Source of the DNA: Candidatus Blautia intestinavium | GTDB taxonomy: Bacteria; Bacillota; Clostridia; Lachnospirales; Lachnospiraceae | Length of the DNA stretch: 64,000 nucleotides | Assembly: GCA_019113745.1 (NCBI GenBank) | Contig: DXGV01000059.1 | Span: 1-64,000, forward strand | Direction: 5' to 3' | In this document: one piece after another, positions 49,972 to 64,000 of the stretch | Layout: the number at the start of each line of letters is the position of its first letter | Numbering within the stretch: the first letter of the stretch is position 1 | Translations under genes and position numbers: made by a program | Notes under the pieces: generated by a model | Seen by the model: the letters and a program-made list of their open reading frames with translations, nothing else | The model's database searches: none | What the model was told of the DNA's origin: nothing

Positions 49972-50006
49972 TGTTTATAAGTATTTTTTTTGAATGGAGA
50001 GAACAT

Positions 50007-50783
50007 ATGAAGGTTGTTATTTTGGCGGGAGGATTTGGGACCAGGATCAGCGAGGAGAGTCATCTGAAACCGAAGCCCATGATCGAAATAGGTGAAAAGC
50101 CTATTTTGTGGCACATTATGAAAATGTATTCCAGCTATGGATTTCATGAGTTTGTAATCTGCTGCGGCTACAAGCAGCATGTGATCAAGGAATGGTTCGC
50201 GGATTATTATCTTCACAACAGCAATATTACCTTTGATTTTACCCAGGAAAATAAAATGATCGTCCATAACAACGTACTGGAGCCCTGGAAGGTAACGCTT
50301 GTGGACACCGGGCTGAAAACAATGACAGGAGGCCGAATCAAGCGGGTGCAGGAGTATCTGGACGGAGACACCTTTATGCTGACTTACGGAGACGGAGTGG
50401 CGGATGTGAACCTGCGGGAGCTTCTGGAGTATCACAGATCTCACGGAAAGATGGCGACGATCACAGCGGCGCAGCCGGGAGGACGTTTTGGGATCCTGGA
50501 TATCACGGAGGACGGAACGATCACCAACTTTAAAGAAAAGAAAAAAGAGGACGGCGGCTGGATCAACGCCGGATTTATGGTACTGGAACCGGAGATCATG
50601 GATCTTATCGAGGGAGACGACACAGTTTTTGAACAGGCTCCTCTGATGGAGGCGGCCCGCCGGGGACAGTTGAACGCTTACCGCCATAAAGGATTCTGGC
50701 AGTGCATGGATACTCTGAGAGAAAAAAATCTCCTGGAAGCCCTGTGGCAGTCGGGAAACGCGCCGTGGAAGATATGGGAGTAG
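50007..50783 (+). CDS. rfbF: Glucose-1-phosphate cytidylyltransferase
   Basis: A 258-residue nucleotidyltransferase that makes CDP-glucose from CTP and glucose-1-phosphate. The N-terminal MKVVILAGGFGTRISEESHL with KPKPMIEIGEKPILWHIMKM is the RfbF signature. LTYGDGVADVNL supplies metal ligands and FWQCMDTLREKNLLE closes the protein. Usually it is followed by CDP-glucose dehydratase for 3,6-dideoxyhexose synthesis; here no such gene is near. The ATG at 50007 follows ATGGAGAG. Confidence 0.9.
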   Translation: MKVVILAGGFGTRISEESHLKPKPMIEIGEKPILWHIMKMYSSYGFHEFVICCGYKQHVIKEWFADYYLHNSNITFDFTQENKMIVHNNVLEPWKVTLVDTGLKTMTGGRIKRVQEYLDGDTFMLTYGDGVADVNLRELLEYHRSHGKMATITAAQPGGRFGILDITEDGTITNFKEKKKEDGGWINAGFMVLEPEIMDLIEGDDTVFEQAPLMEAARRGQLNAYRHKGFWQCMDTLREKNLLEALWQSGNAPWKIWE

Positions 50784-50847
50784 AAGACAGAGAAAAGCCG
50801 GATTTTTACAGCCGTACCGTATCCCTGTATACGAACAATGAGAATTT

Positions 50848-51411
50848 ATGGAAAAAATGAAAAAAGAGCAGGAAAGAAAACTCGAATATGAGCTGATCCG
50901 TTCTAACAGAAAGAGCCTTGCGCTGCAGGTAAAAGAGGATGGGAGCGTAATTGTGCGCGCGCCGCTTCGGATAACGGAGCGCCGGATTGAAACTTTTGCA
51001 GCGGATCACTGGGAATGGGTGGAAAAACAGAAACAGAGAATTTCGCGGCAGAGAGAAAATGCCCGCAGGATCACCGGGGAAGAACGGCAGGAAGGATTTC
51101 AGAAGGCAAAAGAGATCATTCCCCGCCGGACGGCATATTTTGCCGCGCGGATGGGCGTGAGCTATGGACGGATCACTATCCGGGAACAGAAAACACGCTG
51201 GGGAAGCTGCAGCCAGAAGGGAAACCTGAACTTTAACTGGAAACTGGTGCTGATGCCGCCGGAGCTTCTTGATTACGTGGTGGTGCATGAGCTGGCTCAC
51301 CGGAAAGAGATGAATCATTCGCCGAGCTTTTGGGCAGTGGTGGAAAAGGAGCTTCCGGACTACCGGAAAAGGAGAGAAGAGCTGAAGATCCGAGGCAGGG
51401 AATTTATATGA
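50848..51411 (+). CDS. YgjP-like (DUF45) zinc metallopeptidase
   Basis: A 187-residue protein with the zinc motif VVVHELAHRKEMNHSPSFW (HExxH followed by a third His). It is preceded by TRWGSCSQKGNLNFNWKL, the conserved segment of the YgjP/WSS-like group. The N-terminal 60 residues are basic and helical. The family is thought to be proteolytic, some members in DNA-protein repair, but the role of this one is unknown. The ribosome binding site is weak (AATGAGAA). It lies between rfbF and the SGNH gene. Confidence 0.8.
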   Translation: MEKMKKEQERKLEYELIRSNRKSLALQVKEDGSVIVRAPLRITERRIETFAADHWEWVEKQKQRISRQRENARRITGEERQEGFQKAKEIIPRRTAYFAARMGVSYGRITIREQKTRWGSCSQKGNLNFNWKLVLMPPELLDYVVVHELAHRKEMNHSPSFWAVVEKELPDYRKRREELKIRGREFI

Positions 51412-51481
51412 AGCAGCTCCCTGTACGCTTAGGATTTCGGAACCCCGGGAAAGGCTTCTTCGGAAAGAAAGGAGAACAGTT

Positions 51482-52087
51482 ATGTCTGGTACGATTATCT
51501 GTTATGGAGACTCCAATACTTATGGATACGATCCCCGTTCTTTCGCAGGCGGCAGATATGAGAAAAATATCCGCTGGACGGGAATTCTTGAAGATCGTAC
51601 AGACTGGAATATCAGGAATCATGGCATAAACGGGAGGGGGATTCCCCACACATCATCCCAGATCCGTTTTGCCTGTGAACAGGTGGAAAACTGGGGAAGG
51701 GAAGAGCCGCCTGTGTGGATGATGGTTATGCTGGGAACTAACGATCTCCTTCAGGAACCAGGATTTACAGCAGAGGATGCAGCGATGAGAATGGAAAATT
51801 TTCTGTGTAAGCTGGGTGAGACAGAGGCGGTAAAAAGTGGACTCCTTCGTCTCTGGCTGATTTCTCCGCCCTGCATGAAGCGGGGGGCCTGGGTGGAAGA
51901 AAAGCGGATTTGCCGGGAATCGGAAAAAATGGGACAGGAATATCAGAAAGCTGCGCAAAGGCTGGGAATTAAATTTACAGATACAGGAAAATGGGAAATT
52001 CCGGTACTTTTTGACGGCGTACATTTTTCAGAGGAAGGCCACTGTAAATTTGCGGACAGGATACTGGAAGAAGTGAGGAAGATATAA
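51482..52087 (+). CDS. SGNH/GDSL-family hydrolase
   Basis: A 201-residue esterase-type protein. The nucleophile Ser is in IICYGDSNTYGYDP (block I), Gly and Asn follow in INGRGIP and MLGTNDLL (blocks II/III), and the catalytic Asp-His pair is in DGVHFSEEGH (block V). There is no signal peptide, so it is cytosolic. The substrate may be an acetyl or acyl ester of a carbohydrate. The site AAAGGAGAAC precedes the ATG. The next gene starts 2 bp after its stop. Confidence 0.85.
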   Translation: MSGTIICYGDSNTYGYDPRSFAGGRYEKNIRWTGILEDRTDWNIRNHGINGRGIPHTSSQIRFACEQVENWGREEPPVWMMVMLGTNDLLQEPGFTAEDAAMRMENFLCKLGETEAVKSGLLRLWLISPPCMKRGAWVEEKRICRESEKMGQEYQKAAQRLGIKFTDTGKWEIPVLFDGVHFSEEGHCKFADRILEEVRKI

Positions 52088-52089
52088 TT

Positions 52090-52911
52090 ATGGCAGAAAA
52101 TACAAGAATTTTATTTACAGATCTTGACGGGACATTGCTCAACGATAAAAAGGAGATCACGCCGGGAAATCAGGAGGCAATCAACCAGGCTCTGGAAGCG
52201 GGGCATAAGGTGGTGATAAGCACCGGGCGGCCTCTTGCCAGCGGGCTGATCATTGCAGAACGGGCGGGACTGGTAAAGGAAGGATGTTATATTATCGCAT
52301 TTAACGGCGGCCAGATTTACGATCCCTTCCACAAAAAGACGATTTTTGGAAAAACGCTGCCCAGGGAGCTGGCGAAGAATATTTTTCAGGACTCTATAGA
52401 CAGGGGATTACATATCCAGTCTTATTCGGATACAGAGGTGCTCGTCTTAAAAGACGACACAGAGATCCAAAAGTACGTCCAGGGAACGGAGATGCGGTAC
52501 CGGGTTGTTAAGGATCTGGACGCGGCTTTTCCAATGGATCCCTACAAGATACTTGCCATCAGCTTTGACGACCGTCCGAAGATTGAAAAGTTTCAAAGGG
52601 AGACGGTAGATCCCCTGGCGGGAACTGTCAGAAGCTTCTTTTCCAATGACGCGTACCTTGAGATCGTTCCGGAAGGGATTTCCAAGGGCTTTGCGATCCA
52701 GTGGATGTGCAGGTACCTGGATGTGCCTCTGGAAAACTCTGTGGCAGCCGGGGACGCGGAGAACGATGTGGAAATGCTTGAGACAGCTCATGTAGGAGCC
52801 GTGATGTGCAACGCCTTTCCGGGAGTGGCAGATCATGGAGATTATGTGACGGAGCACGACAATAATCATGACGGGCTGGCAGAGATTGTCCGGAAATTCA
52901 TCCTGAACTGA
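52090..52911 (+). CDS. Cof-type HAD-family hydrolase
   Basis: A 273-residue phosphatase of the HAD IIB (Cof) type. The nucleophile motif is ILFTDLDGTLLNDKKE, motif II KVVISTGRPL, motif III lysine in GISKGFAIQW and motif IV VAAGDAENDVEML. A C2 cap sits between motifs II and III. Such enzymes remove phosphate from sugar phosphates, pyridoxal phosphate or flavin; the substrate is undetermined. It is co-transcribed with the SGNH hydrolase. Confidence 0.9.
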   Translation: MAENTRILFTDLDGTLLNDKKEITPGNQEAINQALEAGHKVVISTGRPLASGLIIAERAGLVKEGCYIIAFNGGQIYDPFHKKTIFGKTLPRELAKNIFQDSIDRGLHIQSYSDTEVLVLKDDTEIQKYVQGTEMRYRVVKDLDAAFPMDPYKILAISFDDRPKIEKFQRETVDPLAGTVRSFFSNDAYLEIVPEGISKGFAIQWMCRYLDVPLENSVAAGDAENDVEMLETAHVGAVMCNAFPGVADHGDYVTEHDNNHDGLAEIVRKFILN

Positions 52912-52930
52912 GCGGCAGTACATGAGAAAA

Positions 52931-52987
52931 ACAGCGGCGCTGGCGCGGGCCGGACTGCTGCAATGAAAAGCCGCTGTATCATATAGA
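52931..52987 (+). terminator. Possible terminator of the SGNH-HAD operon
   Basis: ACAGCGGC at 52931-52938 pairs perfectly with GCCGCTGT at 52980-52987. The loop is long and no T-run follows, so termination is uncertain. Confidence 0.4.
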
Positions 52988-53166
52988 AGTAGAAGAAAAA
53001 CATTTTTAAAGGACAGTTTGTCCTGGATTATGCCCCATAAGCGTCATTTTTTCTTAGAGATGATATGATAAAACCGACAGCTTTATCGGTCTGGGAAAGC
53101 GGCAGGTATTCTCCTGTTCCTGCTGAACCAGTTGGAAAGCGAAAAAACAGGAAAGGACGATGGGAC

Positions 53167-54438
53167 ATGAAGAGAAAGTATCTGATGAAACTGGGGATCA
53201 TGCTGATTTGCGGCAGCCTGACGGCGAGCGTACCTGTTTTTGCCAAAGAGCAGCCGGAAGAGAAATGGCAGTATACACAGAAGCAGCAGAACGGCGATAC
53301 TCTGTATACTTTTGAGGAATTACAGCTTTCCATTCCGGAAGACTGGGAGGGAAAAATCGTTACAGGAGTTGAAAAAGGCAGTATTACATTTTATCAAAAG
53401 GATTCGCTGGAGGCAGGAAAGAAGGACGGCGAGACTGGATGCGGGGCGTTGTTTACTATTCACTGCAGTGCTGATTATGATTTCGCGGAGAACCTGCCGA
53501 ACTATTATCTGGTGGGAAGCGGCGAAAAAGGGATCTACTATATAACCGTTCCGGGAGATCTTCACGGATACCAGAAGGACGAAACAATCCTGAACCAGTG
53601 GAAGGAAATGTCCGCAAAGGTAGAGGAAATCTGCAAAAATGTAAAGACAAAAAATCCGGGCGCGCCTGCTTATACTGTCACAGAAGTAAATTTCCGGGAA
53701 AAAGATTCCATGTCCGGTAAGATCCTGGACGTAATCCCTTCCGACACAGAAATATGGATCACCGGAAATCTGGAACAGGACTGGGTGAAAGCGAATTTTG
53801 ATAATGAGGACGGATATGTGAGCGCCGACTATCTGGAGATTCCGGATCTGTCTGACGAAGAGGAAGAAAACGGGAACTCCGGAAGTTCATATGAGAAAGA
53901 GGATACCGGAGATTCTGATGCAGACGCTCAAAACAGTTCTGAAAAAGAGGAAAACGCAGGTGACGAGGATTCTTCCGATGGAAACGGAGAGGACAAGACT
54001 GAGATTCCATTCCAGGGATTTAACCAGTGCGCAGTATATGATGAGAATGGGAACGAACGTATTATCAGAGCGGCAGAAGACAAGAACTGGTATGACGAAA
54101 GCGGCGTTTATTACGGTACTTTTGAGGATGTAGACAATGCGATTGAGCGGGGAAGTATTACGAACGAAAATGGGGAAACTTATTATTTTTCGCCGGCGAA
54201 TATTCCCGGAAGTAATATAAAGGTAATAGACGACGGATATGGAAGAAGCATAGAAATAAGCCGCGGCGACGATGGATTATGGTATGATGCAGAAGGCAAC
54301 TGCTACGGTGCAGATGGAGCGGCCATGATACAGGAAGATCAGGCGGAGGAAAGCGGAGGAAGCCTGGATGGATCCGGCGAAGAGACGCGGGATGACAGCG
54401 GCAGCAACGACAGCTCTTCTGAAAACAGTGCCGAATAG
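53167..54438 (+). CDS. Secreted SH3-domain protein
   Basis: A 423-residue exported protein. The signal peptide is residues 1-27 (LGIMLICGSLTASVPVFAKE). A globular domain of unknown type follows (about 40-155). A bacterial SH3 domain comes next: VTEVNFREKDSMSGKILDVI, TEIWITGNLEQDWVKANFDN, YVSADYLEIP (about 165-222). Then an acidic low-complexity linker of Ser/Glu/Asp, a second domain around 280-400 with repeated W-Y-D-(E/A)-x-G pieces (NWYDESGVYYG, LWYDAEGNCYG), and an acidic tail. It probably binds cell wall or surface polymers. ATG 53167 follows GGACGATGGGAC. Confidence 0.75.
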   Translation: MKRKYLMKLGIMLICGSLTASVPVFAKEQPEEKWQYTQKQQNGDTLYTFEELQLSIPEDWEGKIVTGVEKGSITFYQKDSLEAGKKDGETGCGALFTIHCSADYDFAENLPNYYLVGSGEKGIYYITVPGDLHGYQKDETILNQWKEMSAKVEEICKNVKTKNPGAPAYTVTEVNFREKDSMSGKILDVIPSDTEIWITGNLEQDWVKANFDNEDGYVSADYLEIPDLSDEEEENGNSGSSYEKEDTGDSDADAQNSSEKEENAGDEDSSDGNGEDKTEIPFQGFNQCAVYDENGNERIIRAAEDKNWYDESGVYYGTFEDVDNAIERGSITNENGETYYFSPANIPGSNIKVIDDGYGRSIEISRGDDGLWYDAEGNCYGADGAAMIQEDQAEESGGSLDGSGEETRDDSGSNDSSSENSAE

Positions 54439-54455
54439 TTTTTAAGTGATTTTTG

Positions 54456-54506
54456 AAGGGAAAGAAGGTTGGAAACAACAGTCTTTCCCTTTGTACATTG
54501 ACGTTA
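54456..54506 (+). other. GNRA-capped hairpin merging with a degenerate dispersed repeat
   Basis: AAGGGAAAGA at 54456-54465 pairs perfectly with TCTTTCCCTT at 54482-54491, and the inside pairs as GTTG-gaaa-CAAC. The right arm runs into TTTGTACATTGACGTTA (54490-54506), a degraded end of the dispersed repeat. It probably acts as the 3' end of the SH3-protein transcript. Confidence 0.55.
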
Positions 54507-54586
54507 AAAATAAGCAGGGACTCTTTGAATTGCTTTTTGCCTGTTCTAAAATGTCGAAGAATTGTAACAAAGATGAAAAAATTATA

Positions 54587-54595
54587 TGCTATAAT
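54587..54595 (+). promoter_or_regulatory. Extended -10 promoter of the regulator-kinase operon
   Basis: TGCTATAAT at 54587-54595 is an extended -10 element, 62 bp before the start codon at 54657. The -35 region is weak. Confidence 0.5.
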
Positions 54596-54656
54596 ACCTG
54601 TGTTGTAGAAAAAGCGCGTCAAAATTATTTGACCGACAGGGGGAGGGCAGACAGGT

Positions 54657-55361
54657 ATGATAAGGATCGCCATCGTTGAGGATGAAGAAAACTGCATAAA
54701 AAAGGAAACAGAAATTATAAAGCAGTATTTTGTTGGAAAAAGAATACCTTATGATATCGCCGTTCACATGAATGTAGAGTGGTTTCTCATGGGACTGAAG
54801 GAAGAGGTCTTCGATCTGTATATATTAGATGTAAAAATGCCGTTTAAGAACGGCCTGGAGGCAGCGAGAGAAATAAGAAAACTGTATCCGGATCCGGCGA
54901 TCATATTTGTGACGAATTATATAGATTATGCAGTGGAAGCATATGAGGTAAACACTTATCGGTATATTCCAAAATCTAATTTGGGAGAAAAGCTCCTCCA
55001 GGCGTTAGACAGTCTTCTTCCGAAAATACTGGAAAAAGAAAAACGCTGTTACATGGTTGAGAAGAGAGGAGAGATAGATAAAATTCCTTATTCCGATATT
55101 TACTATCTGAAAAAAGACGGAAAATATGTGGATCTGGTACATCGGGGCGGTATAACAAAGCTGAGGAAAACTTTGATCGGTATCCTGCAGGAACTGGATG
55201 GGAAAGAATTTCTTCCAGTAGAGAAAAGCTATGCAGTAAATATCCGGCATGTGATGCAGATAAAAGGCTGCGACCTTATCATGCGGGACGGCGCCGCCGT
55301 TCCTGTGGGAACGGCCAGAATCGGAAAAGTAAAAAAGGAAATCCTGGATTTCTGGGGGTAA
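54657..55361 (+). CDS. LytTR-type response regulator (AgrA-like)
   Basis: A 234-residue transcription regulator. The receiver covers residues 1-125: acidic pocket IAIVEDEENCIKKE, phospho-acceptor Asp in YILDVKMPFKNGLEAAREI, and the FVTNYIDYAVEAYEVNTYRYI segment with Thr and the following PKSN lysine. Residues 140-234 form the LytTR DNA-binding domain (IYYLKKDGKYVDLVHRGG, FLPVEKSYAVNIRHVMQI). It works with the kinase encoded 5 bp downstream. No agrB/agrD peptide genes were found nearby. Confidence 0.88.
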   Translation: MIRIAIVEDEENCIKKETEIIKQYFVGKRIPYDIAVHMNVEWFLMGLKEEVFDLYILDVKMPFKNGLEAAREIRKLYPDPAIIFVTNYIDYAVEAYEVNTYRYIPKSNLGEKLLQALDSLLPKILEKEKRCYMVEKRGEIDKIPYSDIYYLKKDGKYVDLVHRGGITKLRKTLIGILQELDGKEFLPVEKSYAVNIRHVMQIKGCDLIMRDGAAVPVGTARIGKVKKEILDFWG

Positions 55362-55366
55362 AAAAT

Positions 55367-56857
55367 ATGGGGATCAAGCTGTTGTACGGTTTTGCGGCAT
55401 TTCTGGAGACAGGGATCGGGATATGGATTTTCGGGCAGGCATTTCCGAAAAGAGAGAAAATGGAAAAAAGGCACAGACTCAGCGAGTGGCTGGTGTTTTT
55501 TTGGATCACATTATGCGCCTATTCGTTCCCAAACTTTTATTGGGGGATCAGTGATAAAGAGAAATATATCGGCGGTCTTATGGCGGTTCACATTGCGGTT
55601 GCTGCTGCTTACGTGATTTACAGAATGGTCAGAAAGCAACTGGGCCAAATGGAATCTGGTTTTATCCGGTGTCTTTTGTTTACAGGAATGAGCCTGTGCG
55701 TGACATGTCAGTTTTGGGATTCATATCAATCTTATAATGCGTCTCTGGTGGGGAATCTTTTTCCGCCTTTTTTCTTATGGGCATTTTACAGATGCTCTTT
55801 TGTGCAGGCATATTTGTGGCAGTTTTTCTTTTCCACCAATCTGGGAATGTTGAAAAATATATACATTACCTATGCGGGAATTTTTGAAAACAGAAGACTG
55901 GAAGATTTTTTTTACTGGCCGAGAAGCCATACATATCCGGAAGTATTCTATCTGCTGGCGCTCTGTATAGGACTGATCTTAATAAACAGATATATGCCTT
56001 TGAAAAAAGCGGTTGCTTCTGTACTGAAGGATCACAAAAGAGTGCTGTTTTCATTTACGGCGGCCGAATGGCTGATATTATCAATAATAGTAAAATTCGG
56101 GATAGGAAAAGTTGAGACAAATAATTTTGCCGCAGCGTTGACGATTACCGGAATCATGGCGTCCTGTATGCTGGTGATATATATAAGATTCGTAACAAAG
56201 ACAAATCTTGCGGAAAGAAAACTGTTGGACATGAGGAACGAGATAATAGAGAGGCAGTACCGGGAAATGAAGAAGACATATGAAAGATACAGATGCGTGG
56301 TACATGATGAAAAACATATGTTGATGTATCTTAAGGAGTGCCTGGAAAACGGAGACATTCCGCGCGCTCAAAAGATCGTAGACAGTTATCAGACCAATAT
56401 AAACGAAGCCGTAAGATGCAGATGGACAGGTATACAGAATATTGACTTTATTTTAAGCATTAAAAAGCAGCAGATGGACGACCTTTTTATAAAGCTGGAA
56501 ATGGAGTGTCAGGCGGAGACGATCCCGATGGACGACGCGGATTTTGTAGTGATGTTCAGTAATCTTCTGGATAATGCGATAGAAGCGGCGCAGCAGTGCA
56601 GGACAGAAAAAAGAAAAATAAAGGTGATACTGAAAAATATTAATTCCATGTTCTTTTTAAAAGTGAGAAATGCCTGTAAACATCAGCCAAAAACAAAGGA
56701 ACAGAGGTTCCTGACAAGCAAAAAAGATAAAGAGAGGCATGGCTGGGGAATAGAAAGCGTGAAACATATAGTGGAAAAATATAAAGGAGAAATCAGTTTC
56801 TGTTATTCGGAAGAATATTTTGAGGTATCTGTGCTGATAAATATAGAGGAAAAATAA
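55367..56857 (+). CDS. GHKL-type sensor histidine kinase (AgrC-like)
   Basis: A 496-residue membrane kinase. Seven or so hydrophobic segments fill residues 1-285, a larger sensor than in AgrC. A coiled helix (RNEIIERQYREMKKTYERYR) leads to the phosphorylation site CVVHDEKHMLMYLKE. The GHKL ATPase domain has N-box FSNLLDNAIEAAQQCR and G-box KERHGWGIESVKHIVEKYKG. It phosphorylates the adjacent LytTR regulator in response to an unknown, possibly peptide, signal. Confidence 0.86.
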   Translation: MGIKLLYGFAAFLETGIGIWIFGQAFPKREKMEKRHRLSEWLVFFWITLCAYSFPNFYWGISDKEKYIGGLMAVHIAVAAAYVIYRMVRKQLGQMESGFIRCLLFTGMSLCVTCQFWDSYQSYNASLVGNLFPPFFLWAFYRCSFVQAYLWQFFFSTNLGMLKNIYITYAGIFENRRLEDFFYWPRSHTYPEVFYLLALCIGLILINRYMPLKKAVASVLKDHKRVLFSFTAAEWLILSIIVKFGIGKVETNNFAAALTITGIMASCMLVIYIRFVTKTNLAERKLLDMRNEIIERQYREMKKTYERYRCVVHDEKHMLMYLKECLENGDIPRAQKIVDSYQTNINEAVRCRWTGIQNIDFILSIKKQQMDDLFIKLEMECQAETIPMDDADFVVMFSNLLDNAIEAAQQCRTEKRKIKVILKNINSMFFLKVRNACKHQPKTKEQRFLTSKKDKERHGWGIESVKHIVEKYKGEISFCYSEEYFEVSVLINIEEK

Positions 56858-56862
56858 GACGG

Positions 56863-56891
56863 TTGTGCAAACAGATGTTCTGACGTATAAT
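56863..56891 (+). promoter_or_regulatory. Promoter with a LexA-type box for the polymerase operon
   Basis: TTGTGC at 56863-56868, 17 bp and TATAAT at 56886-56891. AAACAGATGTTC at 56869-56880 lies between them and matches the Gram-positive LexA/DinR box GAACnnnnGTTC with one change. The downstream gene is a Y-family polymerase, so SOS control is a strong inference. Confidence 0.65.
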
Positions 56892-56907
56892 AAGAAAAAA
56901 TGGAGGT

Positions 56908-58809
56908 GTGCGCCAGTTCGGCGCTGGATATATAGCTGGTGAGAATCCAGTCTGGTAAGGCCTAGCAAGCCGCCAGTACCGAGTCCTTGGAGTGCCAAAG
57001 GCTAACAATGGTGTTTAAGCGTAGGACAGGGAACAGGAACGCCGTAATGCGAAAGCGTGAAGTGATTGAGCTTCGTTAGAGTTATCGATTGTGCGGGGTG
57101 GTCTGGTACCTCCTTGGGTCACCAATAAGGAGTAGTCGTTAAAGCGAGACTATGAAAACGCACCGGAGTCCTAGAGCACGGCATACTTGATATTGTTATA
57201 TCTAGCGTACCTGGGAGACCTGGATGGTTCTGGACATGAGCCAGTAGGGAGTATCGGCCAATGCAATGGTGAGTACGAACGAAGACCATCGAGGAGTCGG
57301 ATTCGCCCATAGTACCGATGAAGGAAGTAATGACTCTGGAGGGAAGGGGCGGACAATAAGTTGCTTTTGCTGACAAAACATAGAAAGCACAGGAGGCAGT
57401 CATTCTATGGAAAAAGAGAAAGCAGAAATAGCCAGACTCGTAGAGAAATATGGCAGGGTTCAGTCGTTAATGAAATACGTCAACAGTGACACACTCAAGG
57501 AATCCTACCGCAAACAGCCGAAAGGAAAAGCGGTAGGAATAGACGGGATAACAAAGGAAGAATACGGGGAAAATCTAGAGGAAAATATCGGAAATCTATT
57601 AGTCAGAATGAAGAAGTTTTCCTATAAGCCCTATCCAGTGCGCAGAGCCTATATACCAAAAGGAAATGGGAAAATGCGAGGCCTCGGGATTCCGTCATTT
57701 GAGGACAAAATCGTGCAGGGTGTCTTCAAGGAGATACTGGAAGCGATATACGAGCCGAAATTCAAAGAGTTTTCATTTGGATTTCGCCCAAACAGAAGCT
57801 GTCACGATGCAATCCAGAGAGCAAACAAGCATATCATGGCAGACAAAGTCAATTATATTTTAGATGCTGATATTAAAGGATTCTTTGACAACATAGACCA
57901 TGAATGGATGATTAAATTTCTGGAACATGACATAGCCGACAAGAACTTCATCAGGTATATCAAGAGGTTTCTGATAGGCGGAGTTATGGAAGATGGAAAG
58001 CGATTGGAAACGGAGTCGGGAACAGTTCAGGGCGGATTAATATCGCCAGTGCTGGCAAATGTGTATCTGCATTATACACTGGACACATGGTTTGACTATG
58101 TAAAGAAACGTGAGTTCAGAGGCGAAATGTATATGGTACGCTATGCGGATGACTTTGTATGTCTGTTCCAATACGAGAATGAAGCACGAAAGTTTTATCA
58201 GCTTCTGATAGAAAGACTGAAGAAATTTGGTCTTGAAATTGCAGAGGATAAAAGCAGAATACTGCCCTTTGGCAGATACAAGGGAACAAAGGAAAGTTTT
58301 GATTTCCTTGGATTTACACACTACAATGCAGCCAGCCACTGGGGTAAGTACTGCGTACTGCATAGAACAAGCAGGAAGAAGCTGAAAATGAAACGCGAAG
58401 CCATAAAGAGATGGATATGGGAGCATATGCACGAGAGCATAAGCGACACGATTGAAACGTTGAATGTGAAACTGGCCGGACATTACAGATATTACGGGAT
58501 ATACGGGAATTATATAGGATTGCAAAAGTATTATAAATATGTCCGAGAAGAACTATGGAAAAGCAAAAGGCGCAGAGACCAGACTTATTGGCTGACATGG
58601 CGGAAATACAGGGATATCTTGAAGTTACATCCGTTGGAGTATCCGAGGATATATCTGAAAAGTGCTTATTAGGCAAATGACTTATTGAAGAGCCGTATGC
58701 CTTAATAGGGCACGTGCGGTTCTGTGAGGGGCTTTTGAGACTTGAACCTCTCATCGCAGAGAAATTTGAAATGAAAGGAAGTGAAAAGTCGAGACAAAGT
58801 CTACTCGAC
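56908..58809 (+). mobile_element. Group II intron inserted between the SD and ATG of the polymerase gene
   Basis: The element starts GTGCG at 56908, has the maturase in its fourth domain, domain V at about 58690-58722 (GAGCCGTATGCC...GTGCGGTTC, with the AGC triad) and domain VI at 58788-58809 (GTCGAGAC/GTCT-A-CTCGAC) with bulged branch A58803 and end AC. The 5' exon ends GGAGGT (56902-56907), the Shine-Dalgarno of the polymerase gene. ACCTCC at 57108-57113, in a loop closed by GGTG/CACC, is complementary and is the likely EBS1. The 3' exon begins GAACCGTC directly before ATG 58818. Splicing joins SD and start codon at normal spacing. Confidence 0.85.
57407..58672 (+). CDS. ltrA: Group II intron reverse transcriptase/maturase
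   Basis: A 421-residue intron-encoded protein. Reverse transcriptase blocks: GKAVGIDGITKEEY, RRAYIPKGNGKMRGLGIPSF, FSFGFRPNRSCHDAIQ, ILDADIKGFFDNIDHEWMI, GTVQGGLISPVLANVYLHY and the catalytic YADD at residue 246. The maturase/X domain follows (KFGLEIAEDKSRILPFG through GHYRYYGIYGN). There is no C-terminal HNH endonuclease, as in several bacterial classes. It splices its intron and copies it into DNA. The site AGGAGG lies ten bases before the ATG. The reading frame is intact. Confidence 0.92.
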   Translation: MEKEKAEIARLVEKYGRVQSLMKYVNSDTLKESYRKQPKGKAVGIDGITKEEYGENLEENIGNLLVRMKKFSYKPYPVRRAYIPKGNGKMRGLGIPSFEDKIVQGVFKEILEAIYEPKFKEFSFGFRPNRSCHDAIQRANKHIMADKVNYILDADIKGFFDNIDHEWMIKFLEHDIADKNFIRYIKRFLIGGVMEDGKRLETESGTVQGGLISPVLANVYLHYTLDTWFDYVKKREFRGEMYMVRYADDFVCLFQYENEARKFYQLLIERLKKFGLEIAEDKSRILPFGRYKGTKESFDFLGFTHYNAASHWGKYCVLHRTSRKKLKMKREAIKRWIWEHMHESISDTIETLNVKLAGHYRYYGIYGNYIGLQKYYKYVREELWKSKRRRDQTYWLTWRKYRDILKLHPLEYPRIYLKSAY

Positions 58810-58817
58810 GAACCGTC

Positions 58818-60347
58818 ATGGAACAGGAGCGCCGAACTTATATTGCCATTGATCTGAAATCTTTTTATGCGTCTGTAGAATGTCGTGAAAGGGGCCTTGA
58901 CCCTATGACGGCGAATCTTGTGGTAGCGGACAGAAGCCGTACGGAAAAAACCATCTGCCTTGCGGTCTCGCCCTCTCTGAAGGCATATGGAATCCCCGGG
59001 AGGCCAAGGCTTTTTGAGGTAGAGGAGAAGGTCAGAGAAATCAACGCGCGGAGAAGGCGGCATGCGCCGGGAGGAAAGTTCTCGGGAGCCTCATATCTGG
59101 ATCAGGAGCTGAAAAAGTATCCGGAGCTGGAGCTGACTTATATTGCGGCTCCGCCCAGAATGGCCTTTTATATGGAATACAGCACCAGAATCTACGAAAT
59201 TTATCTGAAATATATTGCGCCGGAGGATATCCATGTGTATTCTATTGACGAGGTGTTTATCGACGCCACTCATTATCTGAAAACATATCAGATGACAGCG
59301 GAAGAGCTGGCGCGGAAAATGATCCTGGATGTGCTTCAGAATACGGGAATTACTGCCGCTGCGGGAATCGGCACGAATCTCTATCTCTGCAAAGTCGCCA
59401 TGGACATTGTGGCGAAGCATATTCCGCCGGATGAACACGGAGTGAGGATCGGGGCGCTGGATGAAATGTCTTACCGGAAGATTCTCTGGGCCCATCAGCC
59501 GCTGACGGATTTCTGGCGCGTGGGAAAAGGATATGAGAAGAAGCTGAAGGCCCATGGGATTTTCACCATGGGAGATATTGCCGCCTGTTCTCTGGGAAAA
59601 CCGGGAGAATATTATAATGAGGAGCTTCTGTATAAGCTTTTCGGGGTGAACGCGGAGCTTCTGATCGACCATGCCTGGGGTTGGGAATCCTGTACGATTG
59701 CGGATATCAAGGCATATCGCCCGGAAAATAACAGCGTGGGCTCCGGCCAGGTGCTGCAGTGCGCCTACACCTGTGAAAAGGCCAGACTTGTAGTTCATGA
59801 GATGACAGATCTGCTGGCGCTGGATCTGGTAGAGAAAAGACTTGTGACAGACCAGATGACTCTGACTGTAGGATATGACATTGAAAATCTGACGGACCCT
59901 GTCCGGCGGAAGAAGTATAAAGGTGAAGTTACTGTTGACCGTTATGGACGGAGAATTCCAAAACACGCCCACGGCAGCGTCAACCTGGACAGACAGACGT
60001 CTTCATCAGAGCTGATCATAAATGCTGTTCTGAAACTTTACGACGAAATCACAGACAAAAATCTTCTGGTCAGAAGGATCTCCGTTACCGCAGGCAGGGT
60101 GGTGAGCGAAGACTCCGTGAAAGAAAAAGAGAATTTTGAACAGCTTGAATTGTTTACAGATTACGAGGCCAGGGAAAAGGAGAAAAAGGAAGAGGAAGAA
60201 CGCCTGCAAAGAGAGAGAAGGATGCAGGAAGCGGTTCTGGATATTAAAAAGAAATTCGGGAAAAATGCAGTTTTAAAGGGAATGAATTTTGAAGAGGGCG
60301 CCACGGCAAGAGAACGTAACCGGCAGATTGGCGGCCACAGAGCGTAA
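58818..60347 (+). CDS. Y-family DNA polymerase (UmuC/UvrX-like)
   Basis: A 509-residue translesion polymerase. YIAIDLKSFYASVECRERGL carries the first metal Asp and the Y-family Tyr; VYSIDEVFIDATHYL carries the catalytic Asp-Glu pair. The thumb and little-finger regions follow, and EQLELF near residue 440 is a sliding-clamp binding motif. The C-terminal 60 residues are charged and helical. In the genome its ATG has no ribosome binding site of its own; that element lies 1.9 kb upstream across the group II intron. It is followed by a YolD gene, the usual UvrX-YolD pair. Confidence 0.9.
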   Translation: MEQERRTYIAIDLKSFYASVECRERGLDPMTANLVVADRSRTEKTICLAVSPSLKAYGIPGRPRLFEVEEKVREINARRRRHAPGGKFSGASYLDQELKKYPELELTYIAAPPRMAFYMEYSTRIYEIYLKYIAPEDIHVYSIDEVFIDATHYLKTYQMTAEELARKMILDVLQNTGITAAAGIGTNLYLCKVAMDIVAKHIPPDEHGVRIGALDEMSYRKILWAHQPLTDFWRVGKGYEKKLKAHGIFTMGDIAACSLGKPGEYYNEELLYKLFGVNAELLIDHAWGWESCTIADIKAYRPENNSVGSGQVLQCAYTCEKARLVVHEMTDLLALDLVEKRLVTDQMTLTVGYDIENLTDPVRRKKYKGEVTVDRYGRRIPKHAHGSVNLDRQTSSSELIINAVLKLYDEITDKNLLVRRISVTAGRVVSEDSVKEKENFEQLELFTDYEAREKEKKEEEERLQRERRMQEAVLDIKKKFGKNAVLKGMNFEEGATARERNRQIGGHRA

Positions 60348-60359
60348 AGGGGAGAAAAA

Positions 60360-60809
60360 ATGAAGAATTATTTCGGAGATACCAGCCGTTATGAAGAGAT
60401 CATGGACCTGCCTCATCATGTGTCAACAAAGCATCCTCCCATGCCGGTCAGGGACAGAGCGGCTCAGTTTGCCCCTTTTGCCGCGCTGACAGGCTACGGG
60501 GAGGCTGTAAGGGAAACGGCGAGATATACGGAGAAGAAGAAGGCTCCTGATGAGGAAAGGCTGGAAAAGCTTGACAGGGCCGTCCGCTTTCTGCGGGAAA
60601 AAATAAAAGAGCGTCCATTTGTGGTCCTTACCTGTTTTCAGGCGGATGAAAGAAAAGACGGAGGTTCTTACGTGGAGGTCAGAGGCAGGCTGAAAAAGAT
60701 TGACGAATACAGGCGGCGGCTTGTTCTGACAGACGGCGCGGAAATATCTTTTGACAATATTCTGGAAATCCGCTGTGAAGAGAATCCGGGAGATTTAGAG
60801 GACAGATGA
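60360..60809 (+). CDS. YolD-like protein
   Basis: A 149-residue protein with the YolD pattern MPVRDRAAQFAPFAALTGYG near residue 28, and a beta-rich C-terminal half (FVVLTCFQADER, SYVEVRGRLKKIDEYRRRLV, ISFDNILEI). YolD proteins are encoded beside Y-family polymerases and are thought to modulate them. It starts 12 bp after the polymerase with AAAGGGGAG and overlaps the next start by ATGA. Confidence 0.85.
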   Translation: MKNYFGDTSRYEEIMDLPHHVSTKHPPMPVRDRAAQFAPFAALTGYGEAVRETARYTEKKKAPDEERLEKLDRAVRFLREKIKERPFVVLTCFQADERKDGGSYVEVRGRLKKIDEYRRRLVLTDGAEISFDNILEIRCEENPGDLEDR

Positions 60810-62401
60810 CGGAAAGGAAACGAAACGACATGGAGACGATCAATACCCAGGGACTCAGCGAGAAAGTTTATCTCTGTCTGGACGCTCCCACAGAGGAGGA
60901 ACACGCCAGCGATCAGCTAAGAATTATCCGGGGCCTGGAAGAAAAAGGATACAGAAATGTTCGCTTATCACTGGAGGCGCTCAGAGAGATTTATCCTCTC
61001 TGCCGGGATGCCGGATGGAAGATTACGGCGACGCTTATTCATAAAGGCGGGGAGAATCTTGTGATTTCTCTGGAAAAGGGCGACGGAACAGACTGTCATT
61101 ACGGGCTGGCTGTGGATTACGGCTCCACGACGATCGTCATGCAGGTGGTGGACATGAACAGCGGGAAGGTGCTGGCTCAGGAAAGCGCGATAAATGGACA
61201 GACAGCCTGCGGAGCGGATATTCTTACGCGGATCACCTACGGTATGGAAAGCACGGAGCATAAAAGAGAGCTTCGCCAGGTTACGGCAAAGACTTTTTGC
61301 ATTCTTCTTGAAGGGCTGGCAGAGAAAACAGGCATCCGGACAAAGGAATGTCCTGTTATGGTGGTCTCAGGAAATACTACGATGGTACATTTTCTTCTGG
61401 AGCTGGACGCATGGACAGTATTCTCTTCGCCTTACGCCCCTGTGACAACAGAACCGGGCTTTTTCCGGGGAAAAGATCTGGGACTGGATTTTTCCGGGGA
61501 GGTGTTCTTTATGCCGGGAATATCCAACTATGTAGGCGGGGATATTGTCAGTGGGCTTCTCCTGATGGACTTTTACAAAAAAGACGAGACAGGGCTGTTT
61601 TTTGATATCGGTACGAACGGAGAACTGGTGATCGGAAACAGAGAGTGGCTGCTTGCCGGAGCGGGGGCGGCCGGTCCCGCTCTGGAGGGAGATATCAGCC
61701 GCTACGGAATACGGGCCTGCCCGGGCGCCATCGACACTGTGCGCATTGAAGGGGAGGAGCTGACGTTTACTACTATTGGCGGGAAAAAGCCGGTTGGGAT
61801 CTGCGGCTCCGGAATCATCGACCTTCTGGCGCAGATGAGACTGAACGGCTGGGTGGACATTGCCGGGAACCTGGTTCCGGAGGCTTCCCCCAGGATCAGG
61901 TATCTGGAAGAAGAGGGAGAGTACGGCGCTGTTTATGCGCTGGAAGAAGAGTCAGAAGAAAGAATTCCCCTTTATTTTTCTCAGACGGATATCCGCCAGT
62001 ATATAGATACCAAGGCGGCGGCTCATACCATGCTGGACTGTCTTCTGGAAAGCGCCGGATGTACGGAAGAAGACATCGGGCATTATTATCTGTCCGGCGC
62101 GTTCTGCGCCCACGGAAATCTTGAGTCGGCCATTACGGTGGGGATTTTTCCGGACGTGCCGCTGGAAAGGTATTCCGCTCTCAGCAACGCGTCTCTTGAC
62201 GGAGCAAGGACGCTGCTTCTTGACAGAAGCCGCATGGAGGATATCGCGTATTTGAGAGAAAACGTATACAGCGTTCAGTTTGCTTCCATGCCGGATTTTA
62301 TTGTCCGCATGCAGGCGGCGAAGTTTATTCCTCATACGGATATGGAGAAATATCCTACAGTGAAAAAGAAACTGGAACAACGAAAAAACAGCAGAGTTTG
62401 A
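60806..62401 (+). CDS. ASKHA-domain protein related to corrinoid-enzyme activators, without the Fe-S domain
   Basis: A 531-residue protein. The actin-like ATPase fold begins GLAVDYGSTTIVMQVVDMNS and includes QTACGADILTRITYGME, GNTTMVHFLL, YVGGDIVSGLL, GLFFDIGTNGELVIG, GICGSGIIDLLAQM and a C-terminal FCAHGNLESAITVGIFPDVP. Full-length activators (RamA/RACE) carry an N-terminal 2Fe-2S ferredoxin domain that supplies electrons for cobalt; here the first 95 residues lack a cysteine cluster. No corrinoid methyltransferase is nearby. It could work with a separate electron donor or on another target. The start overlaps yolD. Confidence 0.8.
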   Translation: MTERKRNDMETINTQGLSEKVYLCLDAPTEEEHASDQLRIIRGLEEKGYRNVRLSLEALREIYPLCRDAGWKITATLIHKGGENLVISLEKGDGTDCHYGLAVDYGSTTIVMQVVDMNSGKVLAQESAINGQTACGADILTRITYGMESTEHKRELRQVTAKTFCILLEGLAEKTGIRTKECPVMVVSGNTTMVHFLLELDAWTVFSSPYAPVTTEPGFFRGKDLGLDFSGEVFFMPGISNYVGGDIVSGLLLMDFYKKDETGLFFDIGTNGELVIGNREWLLAGAGAAGPALEGDISRYGIRACPGAIDTVRIEGEELTFTTIGGKKPVGICGSGIIDLLAQMRLNGWVDIAGNLVPEASPRIRYLEEEGEYGAVYALEEESEERIPLYFSQTDIRQYIDTKAAAHTMLDCLLESAGCTEEDIGHYYLSGAFCAHGNLESAITVGIFPDVPLERYSALSNASLDGARTLLLDRSRMEDIAYLRENVYSVQFASMPDFIVRMQAAKFIPHTDMEKYPTVKKKLEQRKNSRV

Positions 62402-62417
62402 AGGGAGAATGAAGATT

Positions 62418-62885
62418 ATGCTGGAAGTGGGAACAAAGGCGCCGGATTTTGAACTGCCGGACCAGAACGGAACAATGCACACACTGGAAGAGTACAGAGG
62501 GAAAAAGGTGATCCTGTATTTTTACCCCAGAGACAACACTCCGGGCTGCACAAAGCAGGCATGCGGTTTTGGGGAGCTGTATCCTCAGTTTATGGAAAAA
62601 GGAGCGGTGGTACTGGGAGTCAGTAAGGACAGCGTAGCCTCCCATAAGAAATTCGAGGAAAAATACAGCCTGCCTTTTACGCTTTTGTCCGATACGGAGC
62701 TGAACTGTATCCAGGCATACGATGTCTGGAAGGAAAAGAATATGTACGGCAAAAAGACCATGGGCGTTGTGCGCACCACCTATCTGATCGACGAAGAGGG
62801 TGTGATCGTAAAAGCCTTCGGCAAAGTAAAAGCCGCGGATAATCCGGCGCAGATGCTGGCGGAGCTTTCAGAGGATGAAAATTAA
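62418..62885 (+). CDS. bcp: Thiol peroxidase of the Bcp/PrxQ type
   Basis: A 155-residue peroxiredoxin. The peroxidatic Cys is in YPRDNTPGCTKQACGFGELY, and a second Cys five residues on fits the PrxQ resolving position. KAPDFELPDQNG opens the fold and VVRTTYLIDEEGVI closes it. It reduces hydrogen and organic peroxides with thioredoxin. The chosen ATG at 62418 is ten bases after GGGAGA; the ATG nine bases earlier overlaps that site. Confidence 0.92.
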   Translation: MLEVGTKAPDFELPDQNGTMHTLEEYRGKKVILYFYPRDNTPGCTKQACGFGELYPQFMEKGAVVLGVSKDSVASHKKFEEKYSLPFTLLSDTELNCIQAYDVWKEKNMYGKKTMGVVRTTYLIDEEGVIVKAFGKVKAADNPAQMLAELSEDEN

Positions 62886-62957
62886 GGAGGAAATAAAAAA
62901 GGCAGTCCGGAAATCTGATGCTGCCAGGATGAAAGGAGGGAAAGAAGGGACAGGATT

Positions 62958-63743
62958 ATGAAGATCATAATTTCTCCTGCGAAAAAAATGAATACGGATA
63001 CAGATTTCCCCGCAGCGCCGAGGATCCCTGTATTTCTGGATAAAACAAGGGTACTGATGCAGGCGGTGCGGGAGCTTTCCCAGGCGGAGGCAAAGGCGGT
63101 ATGGAAATGTAACGACAAGCTTGCACAGTTGAATTACAGACGCTTTCAGTCCATGGATCTGGAACGGGGGCTGACTCCCGCTGTCCTTTCCTACGAGGGT
63201 CTGCAGTACCAGCATATGGCTCCGGCGGTATTTTCAGAAACCGCTTTGCAGTACATAGAAGAACATCTGAGGATACTGTCCGGTTTTTACGGCGTCCTGA
63301 AGCCTTTTGACGGAGTGACGCCCTACCGGCTGGAAATGCAGGCAAAGCTTTCTGTAAACGGCAAAAAGGATCTGTATGATTTCTGGGGAGACAGCCTGTA
63401 TCGGGAACTGACAAAAGACGGAGACAGAACTATTGTCAATCTTGCCTCAAAAGAGTACGCGAAAGCGGTGGAAAAATATTTGTCCCCGGAGGATCGGTTT
63501 ATTACAGTGGAATTCGGGGAGCTGACAGAGGGAAAGGTAAAGCAGAAAGGTACTTTTGCGAAAATGGCCCGGGGAGAGATGGTCCGGTTTATGGCGGAGA
63601 ATCAGGTGGAAGATGTGGAAAAACTCCGGGATTTTCAGGGCCTTGGCCTGAGTTATTGTGGAAAACTTTCCGATGACAGCAGATATGTATTTGTGAAGCA
63701 GGGGCGGGAAAACCGCATTAGCTTTCATAGAGTCACTGGATGA
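62958..63743 (+). CDS. yaaA: Peroxide stress protein YaaA (DUF328)
   Basis: A 261-residue DNA-binding protein of the YaaA family, known in Escherichia coli to limit intracellular iron and DNA damage under peroxide. Signatures: IIISPAKKMNTDTDFPAAPR, the FNGPVY-equivalent YEGLQYQHM, RILSGFYGVLKPFDGVTPYR-LEM and VNLASKEYAKAV. Its position just after the peroxidase gene fits a common peroxide theme. The site AGAAGGGACAGG precedes the ATG. The last codons overlap the next start by ATGA. Confidence 0.92.
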   Translation: MKIIISPAKKMNTDTDFPAAPRIPVFLDKTRVLMQAVRELSQAEAKAVWKCNDKLAQLNYRRFQSMDLERGLTPAVLSYEGLQYQHMAPAVFSETALQYIEEHLRILSGFYGVLKPFDGVTPYRLEMQAKLSVNGKKDLYDFWGDSLYRELTKDGDRTIVNLASKEYAKAVEKYLSPEDRFITVEFGELTEGKVKQKGTFAKMARGEMVRFMAENQVEDVEKLRDFQGLGLSYCGKLSDDSRYVFVKQGRENRISFHRVTG

Positions 63744-64000
63744 GCAGACGGTTTTGTGATATTAAATGTGAGCAGAAAAAAGCAAGTCTGTTTGGTTCCT
63801 TTGCAAAAGATACCTATAACGAGGACAGCGACTATGATTTTTATGTTGTAGTACCGGATGATGCCGGAAATAAGATCGAGCTGTCCCAGAAAGCATATAA
63901 ATCGCTCCGTGGAATCAGGAAACGTCCGGTAGATATTGTGGTAGGATATGAATCCTCTTTTGATATAAGGGCGAAGGAAAATACTCTTGAAAAGGTTGTG
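63740..64000 (+). CDS. MNT-type nucleotidyltransferase, partial at window edge
   Basis: The frame from ATG 63740 runs off the end with 87 codons. It has the nucleotidyltransferase signature LFGSFAKDTYNEDSDYDFYV (GSx-n-DxD) and RGIRKRPVDIVVGYESSF with the third acidic residue. Stand-alone proteins of this kind are often antitoxins paired with HEPN toxins. The N-terminus before LFGS is short and unlike relatives, which have a 20-30 residue helix, so the gene may be truncated at its start. The ATGA overlap with yaaA could be fortuitous. Confidence 0.65.
   Translation, partial: MSRRFCDIKCEQKKASLFGSFAKDTYNEDSDYDFYVVVPDDAGNKIELSQKAYKSLRGIRKRPVDIVVGYESSFDIRAKENTLEKVV

Follow-up and report, generated by a model that had tools for sequence, protein, structure and literature searches.

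The analyzed window, a stretch of 64,000 nt from Candidatus Blautia intestinavium (contig DXGV01000059.1), contains a gene for a Y-family DNA polymerase whose translation start region, GGAGGT-8 nt-ATG, is split by a group II intron (56908-58809), as read directly from the sequence. The 5′ exon ends in ...ATAAGAAAAAATGGAGGT with 56907 as its last base, the intron starts with GTGCGCC at 56908 and ends with CTCGAC at 58809, and the region 56886-58820 has the order TATAAT-AAGAAAAAAT-GGAGGT / GTGCGCC...CTCGAC / GAACCGTC-ATG. The other features are listed in Table 1. The boundaries GTGCG...AC fit those of group II introns (5′ GTGYG, 3′ AY), and both the domain I and the domain V-VI RNA of the window intron reached the Rfam gathering score. 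The branch-point A is probably located at 58803. The intron-encoded protein was attributed to TIGR04416 with 372 bits at a cut-off of 300. One intron copy was found in the genome itself, the assembly of which is 82.7% complete. An ORF encoding a YolD-like protein (60360-60809, below the Pfam cut-off) lies directly 3′ of the polymerase gene, and the two presumably resemble the known polymerase-YolD pairs. A consensus promoter scan of 56700-57000 gave no plus-strand promoter and only two minus-strand matches. Note that the scanner demands 4/6 matches in each hexamer, and the −35-like TTGTGC (3/6) falls below this.

Table 1. Features of the intron-containing polymerase locus (positions in the window)
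Feature	Position	Strand	Evidence or remark
−35-like hexamer TTGTGC (3/6)	56863..56868	+	17 bp from the −10 element; direct reading
Palindrome AAACAGATGTTC, LexA/SOS-like, between −35 and −10	56869..56880	+	Counterpart AAACnnATGTTC at intron-less L164-L167
−10 element TATAAT	56886..56891	+	Ends 16 nt before the intron; also at empty sites L164-L167
Shine-Dalgarno sequence (SD) of the polymerase gene = IBS1, GGAGGT	56902..56907	+	6/6 pairing with EBS1
Group II intron, GTGCGCC...CTCGAC	56908..58809	+	Rfam domains; 99.4% identical copies L016 and L017; empty allele
Part of domain I, RF02005	56942..57178	+	Rfam, 98 bits
EBS1 ACCTCC (57108-57113) within ACCTCCTT	57108..57115	+	Direct reading, Rfam alignment, pairing
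AGGAGG, probable SD of the ORF within the intron	57391..57396	+	Read directly; role putative
Intron-encoded reverse transcriptase/maturase, 421 aa, YADD	57407..58672	+	TIGR04416, RVT_1
Domains V-VI, RF00029	58688..58809	+	Rfam, 42.6 bits
3′ exon leader GAACCGTC; first base G = IBS3	58810..58817	+	G in 15/15 copies
Y-family DNA polymerase, 509 aa	58818..60347	+	ORF, profile matches

The polymerase was present in 44 of the 64 same-genus genomes searched. Leaders were compared at 20 polymerase loci including the window's own (L163); among the 19 relatives, L168 yielded no leader. In L165, whose polymerase is 95% identical, the leader is identical but uninterrupted, with the sequence TATAATAAGAAAAAATGGAGGTGAACCGTCATG. 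L164 and L166 show this GGAGGT join as well, with minor differences (L166 has ATA for ATG), and the more diverged leader of L167 aligns as AGGAGGGAAACCGTTATG. The uninterrupted GGAGGT site is therefore kept in three same-genus genomes (L164, L165, L166), and TATAAT together with the AAACnnATGTTC palindrome is located upstream at all four loci, L164-L167. We take the palindrome (AAACAGATGTTC or AAACnnATGTTC) to resemble a LexA box, which fits an SOS gene. Exact excision of the window intron reproduces the empty allele. The 3′ tail of the intron was found at 0/19 relative same-genus polymerase loci, and two genome searches revealed copies in 0/1 and 0/6 other same-genus genomes. Since the intron-less same-genus alleles keep the joined leader, the intron entered a pre-existing promoter and leader precisely. 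A preliminary description of this DNA had placed the intron exactly between the SD and the ATG, and both the direct reading and the intron-less L165 allele confirm this.

The same description had proposed that ACCTCC (57108-57113) is an EBS1 complementary to this IBS1 and mimics the anti-SD. This assignment agrees with the 6/6 pairing and with the Rfam alignment, which places EBS1 within or at the border of the unpaired loop that caps a hairpin of domain I. The string ACCTCCTT presumably shares its letters with the 16S anti-SD core; this 8-mer taken alone was dropped as evidence, because chance alone would give 2.3 copies of it in the window. The proposed folding of domain I gave a divided answer: the alignment shows the expected loop position, but an open EBS1 loop was not seen in the unconstrained MFE fold of 57078-57170, where the ACCUCCUU region pairs with a nearby AAGGAG. 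For this reason, the placement of EBS1 rests on the Rfam alignment and on the covariation given below. The AAGGAG in question (57127-57132) is situated just 3′ of the EBS1 hairpin and, judging from the MFE model, could be a self-block of the anti-SD guide. In addition, the AGGAGG at 57391-57396, the likely SD of the intron's own ORF, is mostly complementary to EBS1 and may be a further partner of it; autoregulation of the reverse transcriptase by this pairing is possible.

Relatives of the intron were obtained from whole-genome searches, with matches in 11/397 genomes of the family, 11/392 genomes of the order, and 6/58, 3/4 and 10/295 genomes in the other searches; the sets overlap and the matches include more distant introns. 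Further sources were 25 genome-contig loci (distant relatives included) and the viral-contig locus L107. Junctions were collected by intron similarity or by an intron-head pattern, blind to the exons. Duplicates were dropped (L002=L020, L003=L012=L023, L004=L013=L033, L024=L041=L049, L010=L184, L011=L183, L015=L186, L139=L137, L142 and L204=L047, L203=L045, L194 and L202=window, L195=L004, L196=L002), and L141 was merged with L136 (ends and flanks alike, genome handles different). Loci with no usable 5′ end (L037, L038, L044, L135, L186, L188, L190, L193, L197, L199, L200) were omitted from the 5′ counts, as was L212, a phage clone without the intron 5′ part; L036 was retained as an exception. 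Lineage 1, to which the window intron belongs, thereby comprised 18 5′ junctions and 15 3′ junctions. Of the 3′ junctions, that of L016 includes no more than one base of exon, and L043 represents a less closely related copy with 69% identity across the 3′ half. A search of viral sequences with the pattern GTGCGCCAGTTYGGYGCY gave 85 stretches, of which BLAST of the window intron matched one, L107. One other viral pattern gave L206 and L207, one gave L107 again, and two further pattern searches gave nothing. No relative of the intron-encoded protein was found among viral contigs, and plasmid and phage searches revealed distant relatives only.

Tabulation of the 5′ exons and start-codon distances of the relatives, as the preliminary description had suggested, bore out the arrangement seen in the window. 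IBS1 of lineage 1 matches GGAGGT at a minimum of four of six positions in 17/18 sites and exactly in 9/18 (GGAGGT 9, TGAGGT 3, and one each of GGGGGT, GGGAGT, GATGGT, GGGGGG, GGAGAT and TATAGT). The exception is L036, with the head GTCCG, IBS1 TATAGT, EBS1 GCCTCT, 2/6 pairing and a best −10 hexamer of 4/6. The first base of the 3′ exon is G in 15/15 junctions, and in all 14 readable 3′ exons an ATG starts 3-8 nt past the splice site; it opens an ORF of at least 57 aa in 11 of them and a short frame in L019, L023 and L026. Ten downstream proteins besides the polymerase were scanned against Pfam. Matches above the cut-off were flavodoxin, 4Fe-4S/radical-SAM (NrdG-like by our own reading), FtsX permease, LysR regulator, HAD hydrolase and IS transposase; AraC-type and HicB-like matches were below it, and 2/10 proteins had no match. 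Since the downstream genes differ, the lineage targets SD sequences and not SOS genes. The notion that there is something special about SOS genes was thus abandoned, support for SOS-specific control being confined to the polymerase locus. Homing to one site was also ruled out, because the sites precede unrelated genes. The idea that an ordinary homing intron landed in one SD by chance, although ACCTCCTT is not rare by itself, is refuted by the recurrence in relatives (17/18 sites at unrelated genes) and has a practically negligible probability.

Two copies elsewhere, L016 and L017, are 99.4% identical to the window intron, which suggests recent movement of the intron, and the copy in L017 precedes a flavodoxin gene. 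These data bear on the possibility that the intron is a domesticated splicing switch evolved to control the SOS polymerase. The LexA-like box in the promoter and an SD that would be rebuilt by splicing are what such a switch should have, but a nearly identical intron before a flavodoxin gene, the absence of the intron from the other same-genus polymerase loci and genomes searched, and the apparently intact reverse transcriptase that it encodes make this explanation highly improbable.

Six members of the sub-lineage form one clade with 100/100 support in the protein tree. Sister introns carry other guides and occupy other sites, namely TCAGGT/ACCTGA in L047 and CCCATT/TATGGG inside an ORF in L046. 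Because these sisters use non-SD sites, the anti-SD guide characterizes the sub-lineage. The preliminary description had named a matching EBS1 behind unrelated sequence as evidence against its view; no such case was found inside the lineage, and L046 and L047 are examples outside it.

A comparison of the upstream regions revealed a −10 element at nearly every lineage-1 site. At 16/18 sites versus 4/118 ordinary SD gene starts, a hexamer that agrees with TATAAT in at least 5/6 positions has its end at a distance of 12-16 nt upstream of the intron; this spacing window, as well as that of 8-10 nt used for lineage 2, was picked after inspecting the sites. The control gene starts have at least 5/6 of GGAGGT at 4-9 nt from ATG and were drawn from the 305 ORF-based genes that the window and 20 further stretches of the same genome contain (384 kb in total). 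In a wider window of 9-18 nt, the element was found in 17/18 sites versus 9/118 (Fisher p 2.8e-14), and compared with 2.8% of genome positions the binomial p was 1.8e-23; p-values of this kind, including that for lineage 2, overstate independence because the copies share ancestry, although the sites differ. When the upstream 40 nt were shuffled, a mean of 1.8/18 sites and a maximum of 7 retained such a hexamer. The spacing is narrow, with the best hexamer at 14-16 nt in 13/18 sites. AT-richness and near-palindromy contribute to the signal, since the antisense hexamer ATTATA is also frequent (at least 5/6 in 8/18 lineage-1 and 3/15 lineage-2 windows). Elements of the −35 type are weakly enriched (8/32 at 16-18 bp versus 2-6/32 elsewhere), and TGn stands ahead of the best hexamer in 5/18 lineage-1 sites. 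The target is thus a promoter-proximal SD, not any SD, and the earlier suggestion of homing to SDs in general holds with this restriction.

The best explanation of these results, to which we assign a probability of roughly 0.8, is an endonuclease-less mobile group II intron whose target combines a sigma-A-type −10 element, a spacing of 12-16 nt and an EBS1-pairing SD with a following G and a start codon ATG at a distance of 3-8 nt.

Lineage 2 (head GTGCGAGCTG) includes 15 sites (L137, L183, L184, L185, L187, L138, L198, L189, L191, L192, L201, L205, L206, L207, L005). It shares with lineage 1 a related intron-encoded protein and RNA and a position just after −10 boxes, but differs in the offset of 8-10 nt, in its varied EBS1 and IBS1 and in its mostly non-SD sites. 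The −10 element was found at 8-10 nt in 12/15 sites (background 1.7%, p 2.1e-19), at exactly 9 nt in 10/15 and at 12-16 nt in 0/15. TGn precedes the best hexamer in 12/15 sites, and in 11 of those the hexamer has at least 5/6 matches; L187 is the sole lineage-2 site without a −10-like hexamer near the junction. Because the intron begins near the expected transcription start, the 5′ exon of lineage 2 may be too short for normal splicing. An ORF-less lineage-2 intron of ~650 nt was observed in L138 (1413-2060).

EBS1 and IBS1 covary among these introns. In a set of 13 introns with 12 different EBS1 (nine from lineage 2, three sister introns and the window's), own EBS1-IBS1 combinations gave 69/78 pairs versus a permuted mean of 42.7, and 0/20,000 permutations were as good, a result that is somewhat favoured by the choice of the EBS1 register in the loop from the same sequences. 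L019 (IBS1 GGGAGT, EBS1 ACTCCT) and L023 (EBS1 ATCTCC) each show 6/6 pairing with one wobble. Weaker pairing was found in L017, L020, L022 and L032 (5/6), L028 and L005 (4/6) and L137 (3/6).

More distant relatives were tallied at 14 sites. A hexamer with at least 5/6 matches lies within 7-17 nt in 3/3 sister introns (L045, 10 nt; L046, 9 nt; L047, 17 nt), in 1/3 of lineage 3 (L009, 7 nt) and in 0/8 of the others; the L046 hexamer is TATAAC and lies in an ORF. In an Rfam search of nine relatives, D1 was matched in 9/9 and D5-6 in 4/9 (L018, L020, L022, L046), with no D5-6 match in L021, L183, L184, L045 and L137. Lineage 3 (head GTGCGCCCAGCTAAGGG; L008, L009, L136) occurs in differing contexts, in 3/3 cases after TTCCAGTT. 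Terminator-like hairpins were noticed by eye shortly upstream of L210 and L211, two of three plasmid copies of the Bacillales type whose 5′ end is present, and of the Lachnospirales copy L140. In L025 (around 1114), the 5′ exon of the intron ends in GAAGAGCCGTATG, which resembles domain V of another group II intron and points to a nested arrangement.

The −10 spacing could reflect selection instead of targeting: EBS1 would admit any SD, and copies would persist only near a promoter, where they are transcribed and splicing is least harmful. Where the 3′ exon of a lineage-1 site is readable, the intron precedes a start codon in the sense direction, a position in which it should do the least damage, and the spacing of this lineage is loose (12-16 nt), as expected from survival. 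However, operon-internal SDs are equally transcribed, yet the control SD starts seldom adjoin a −10, and the near-rigid 9-nt spacing of lineage 2 despite its varied IBS1 is hard to obtain via survival alone. As the spacing differs between the two lineages, survival bias is the weaker rival and we consider it unlikely. The spacing thus probably reflects targeting of the promoter region rather than later selection.

Targeting of the promoter region, via a protein or via open DNA, is the most economical explanation of the −10 pattern: the protein would read the −10, or the RNP would use promoter DNA opened by RNA polymerase. In the former version, the intron protein reads TGnTATAAT-like DNA at a set distance and promoters are invaded for their motif, RNA polymerase being uninvolved. 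This is a version of the best explanation and their odds overlap; we regard it as a real contender that falls somewhat short of an even chance. The exact 9 nt and the frequent TGn of lineage 2, the weak −35 and the TATAAC at exactly 9 nt inside the ORF of L046 agree with motif reading, but the 12-16 nt spread of lineage 1 exceeds the looseness of protein-DNA contacts of LtrA, which are tighter. Clostridium phytofermentans belongs to the same bacterial family as the host. Passages of PMC5171806 describe promoters of this species with TATAAT and an extended −10 (TG), and the letter preference of the introns (TA....T, TG upstream) is that of its sigma-A promoters, which speaks against reading of a motif independent of promoters.

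If transcription starts ~7 nt after the −10, as is the rule, the 5′ exon in the RNA should have some 6-10 nt, little beyond IBS1. In the precursor, the SD would be held by EBS1, 1.9 kb from its start codon; splicing, which presumably takes place in vivo, would join the exons and restore SD-8 nt-ATG with the ligated leader ...GGAGGTGAACCGTCATG. The predicted pairing with the 16S tail at 10 sites was −10.3 to −18.1 kcal/mol for spliced versus −1.1 to −3.3 kcal/mol for unspliced leaders, the latter all modelled with one fixed intron tail. Because unspliced leaders pair weakly with the 16S tail, SD-driven translation should need splicing, while unaided initiation is possible. The earlier claim that splicing restores the ribosome binding site is in line with these modelled energies. 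An allosteric, riboswitch-controlled intron is not indicated, as no ligand aptamer reached the Rfam gathering score within 50000-64000, although an aptamer of a new type may be present.

Intron-encoded proteins with ~39% identity to that of the window were found on Sinorhizobium and Klebsiella plasmids. This similarity suggests membership in class D (RmInt1-like). The lack of an HNH endonuclease fits this class (Pfam detected RVT_1 as the sole match in the 421-aa protein and no HNH domain) and, according to passages of a review, is common to classes C, E and F too (PMC4424553). RmInt1 of Sinorhizobium meliloti, a class D intron, resembles the window intron in its endonuclease-less protein and EBS1-IBS1 pairing, and its protein is similar in size. 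In contrast to lineage 1, located at the −10-adjacent SD of many genes, RmInt1 resides in one IS element, ISRm2011-2, as stated in an excerpt of PMC4238363. Group IIC introns, as outlined in parts of PMC4424553, likewise lack the endonuclease and recognize a generic signal, not one gene; intrinsic terminators or attC play this part there, whereas in lineage 1 it is a promoter with an SD. Class C (IIC) was rejected for the window intron, since no terminator-like site was found in 56700-57000 and the 5′ exons end in SDs. Passages of the same review indicate that endonuclease-less introns take the primer from elsewhere, e.g., replication forks (PMC4424553). The nearest functional parallel is the c-di-GMP group I intron of Clostridium difficile, where, according to parts of PMC3984707, splicing sets the ribosome binding site before the start codon. 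The C. difficile intron belongs to group I and carries an aptamer, whereas the window intron belongs to group II, encodes a reverse transcriptase of its own and showed no aptamer in the Rfam search.

In the passages of a 2015 review, the specificities of bacterial group II introns are homing sites, terminators and attC (PMC4424553). No description of SD or promoter targeting by these introns was recognized in titles and abstract openings of the open-licence papers retrieved or in passages including those of PMC4028801 and PMC2882425, which is not proof of novelty. To the three specificities named in the review, lineage 1 would add the promoter-proximal SD as a fourth. A wider reading, at present rather less probable than its negation, is that of a retroelement family integrating at transcription start regions, where the RNP would either dock on the −10 or enter promoters that RNA polymerase has opened, via their non-template strand, with offsets of ~9 or ~15 nt by lineage. 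The guide of one lineage would have converged on the anti-SD, placing translation of the invaded genes behind splicing.

The choice of an SD with a −10 at many genes would be an answer to the safe-harbour problem, since the coding frame stays intact and the leader is rebuilt by splicing. These introns offer a testable example of a retroelement directed to the start regions of bacterial transcription and of an RNA guide with the ribosome's own recognition letters, and the guide might serve for promoter-proximal DNA insertion. The SD-driven translation of many genes should hinge on splicing and, if our reading is true, every promoter-proximal SD would be a possible home for a lineage-1 intron.
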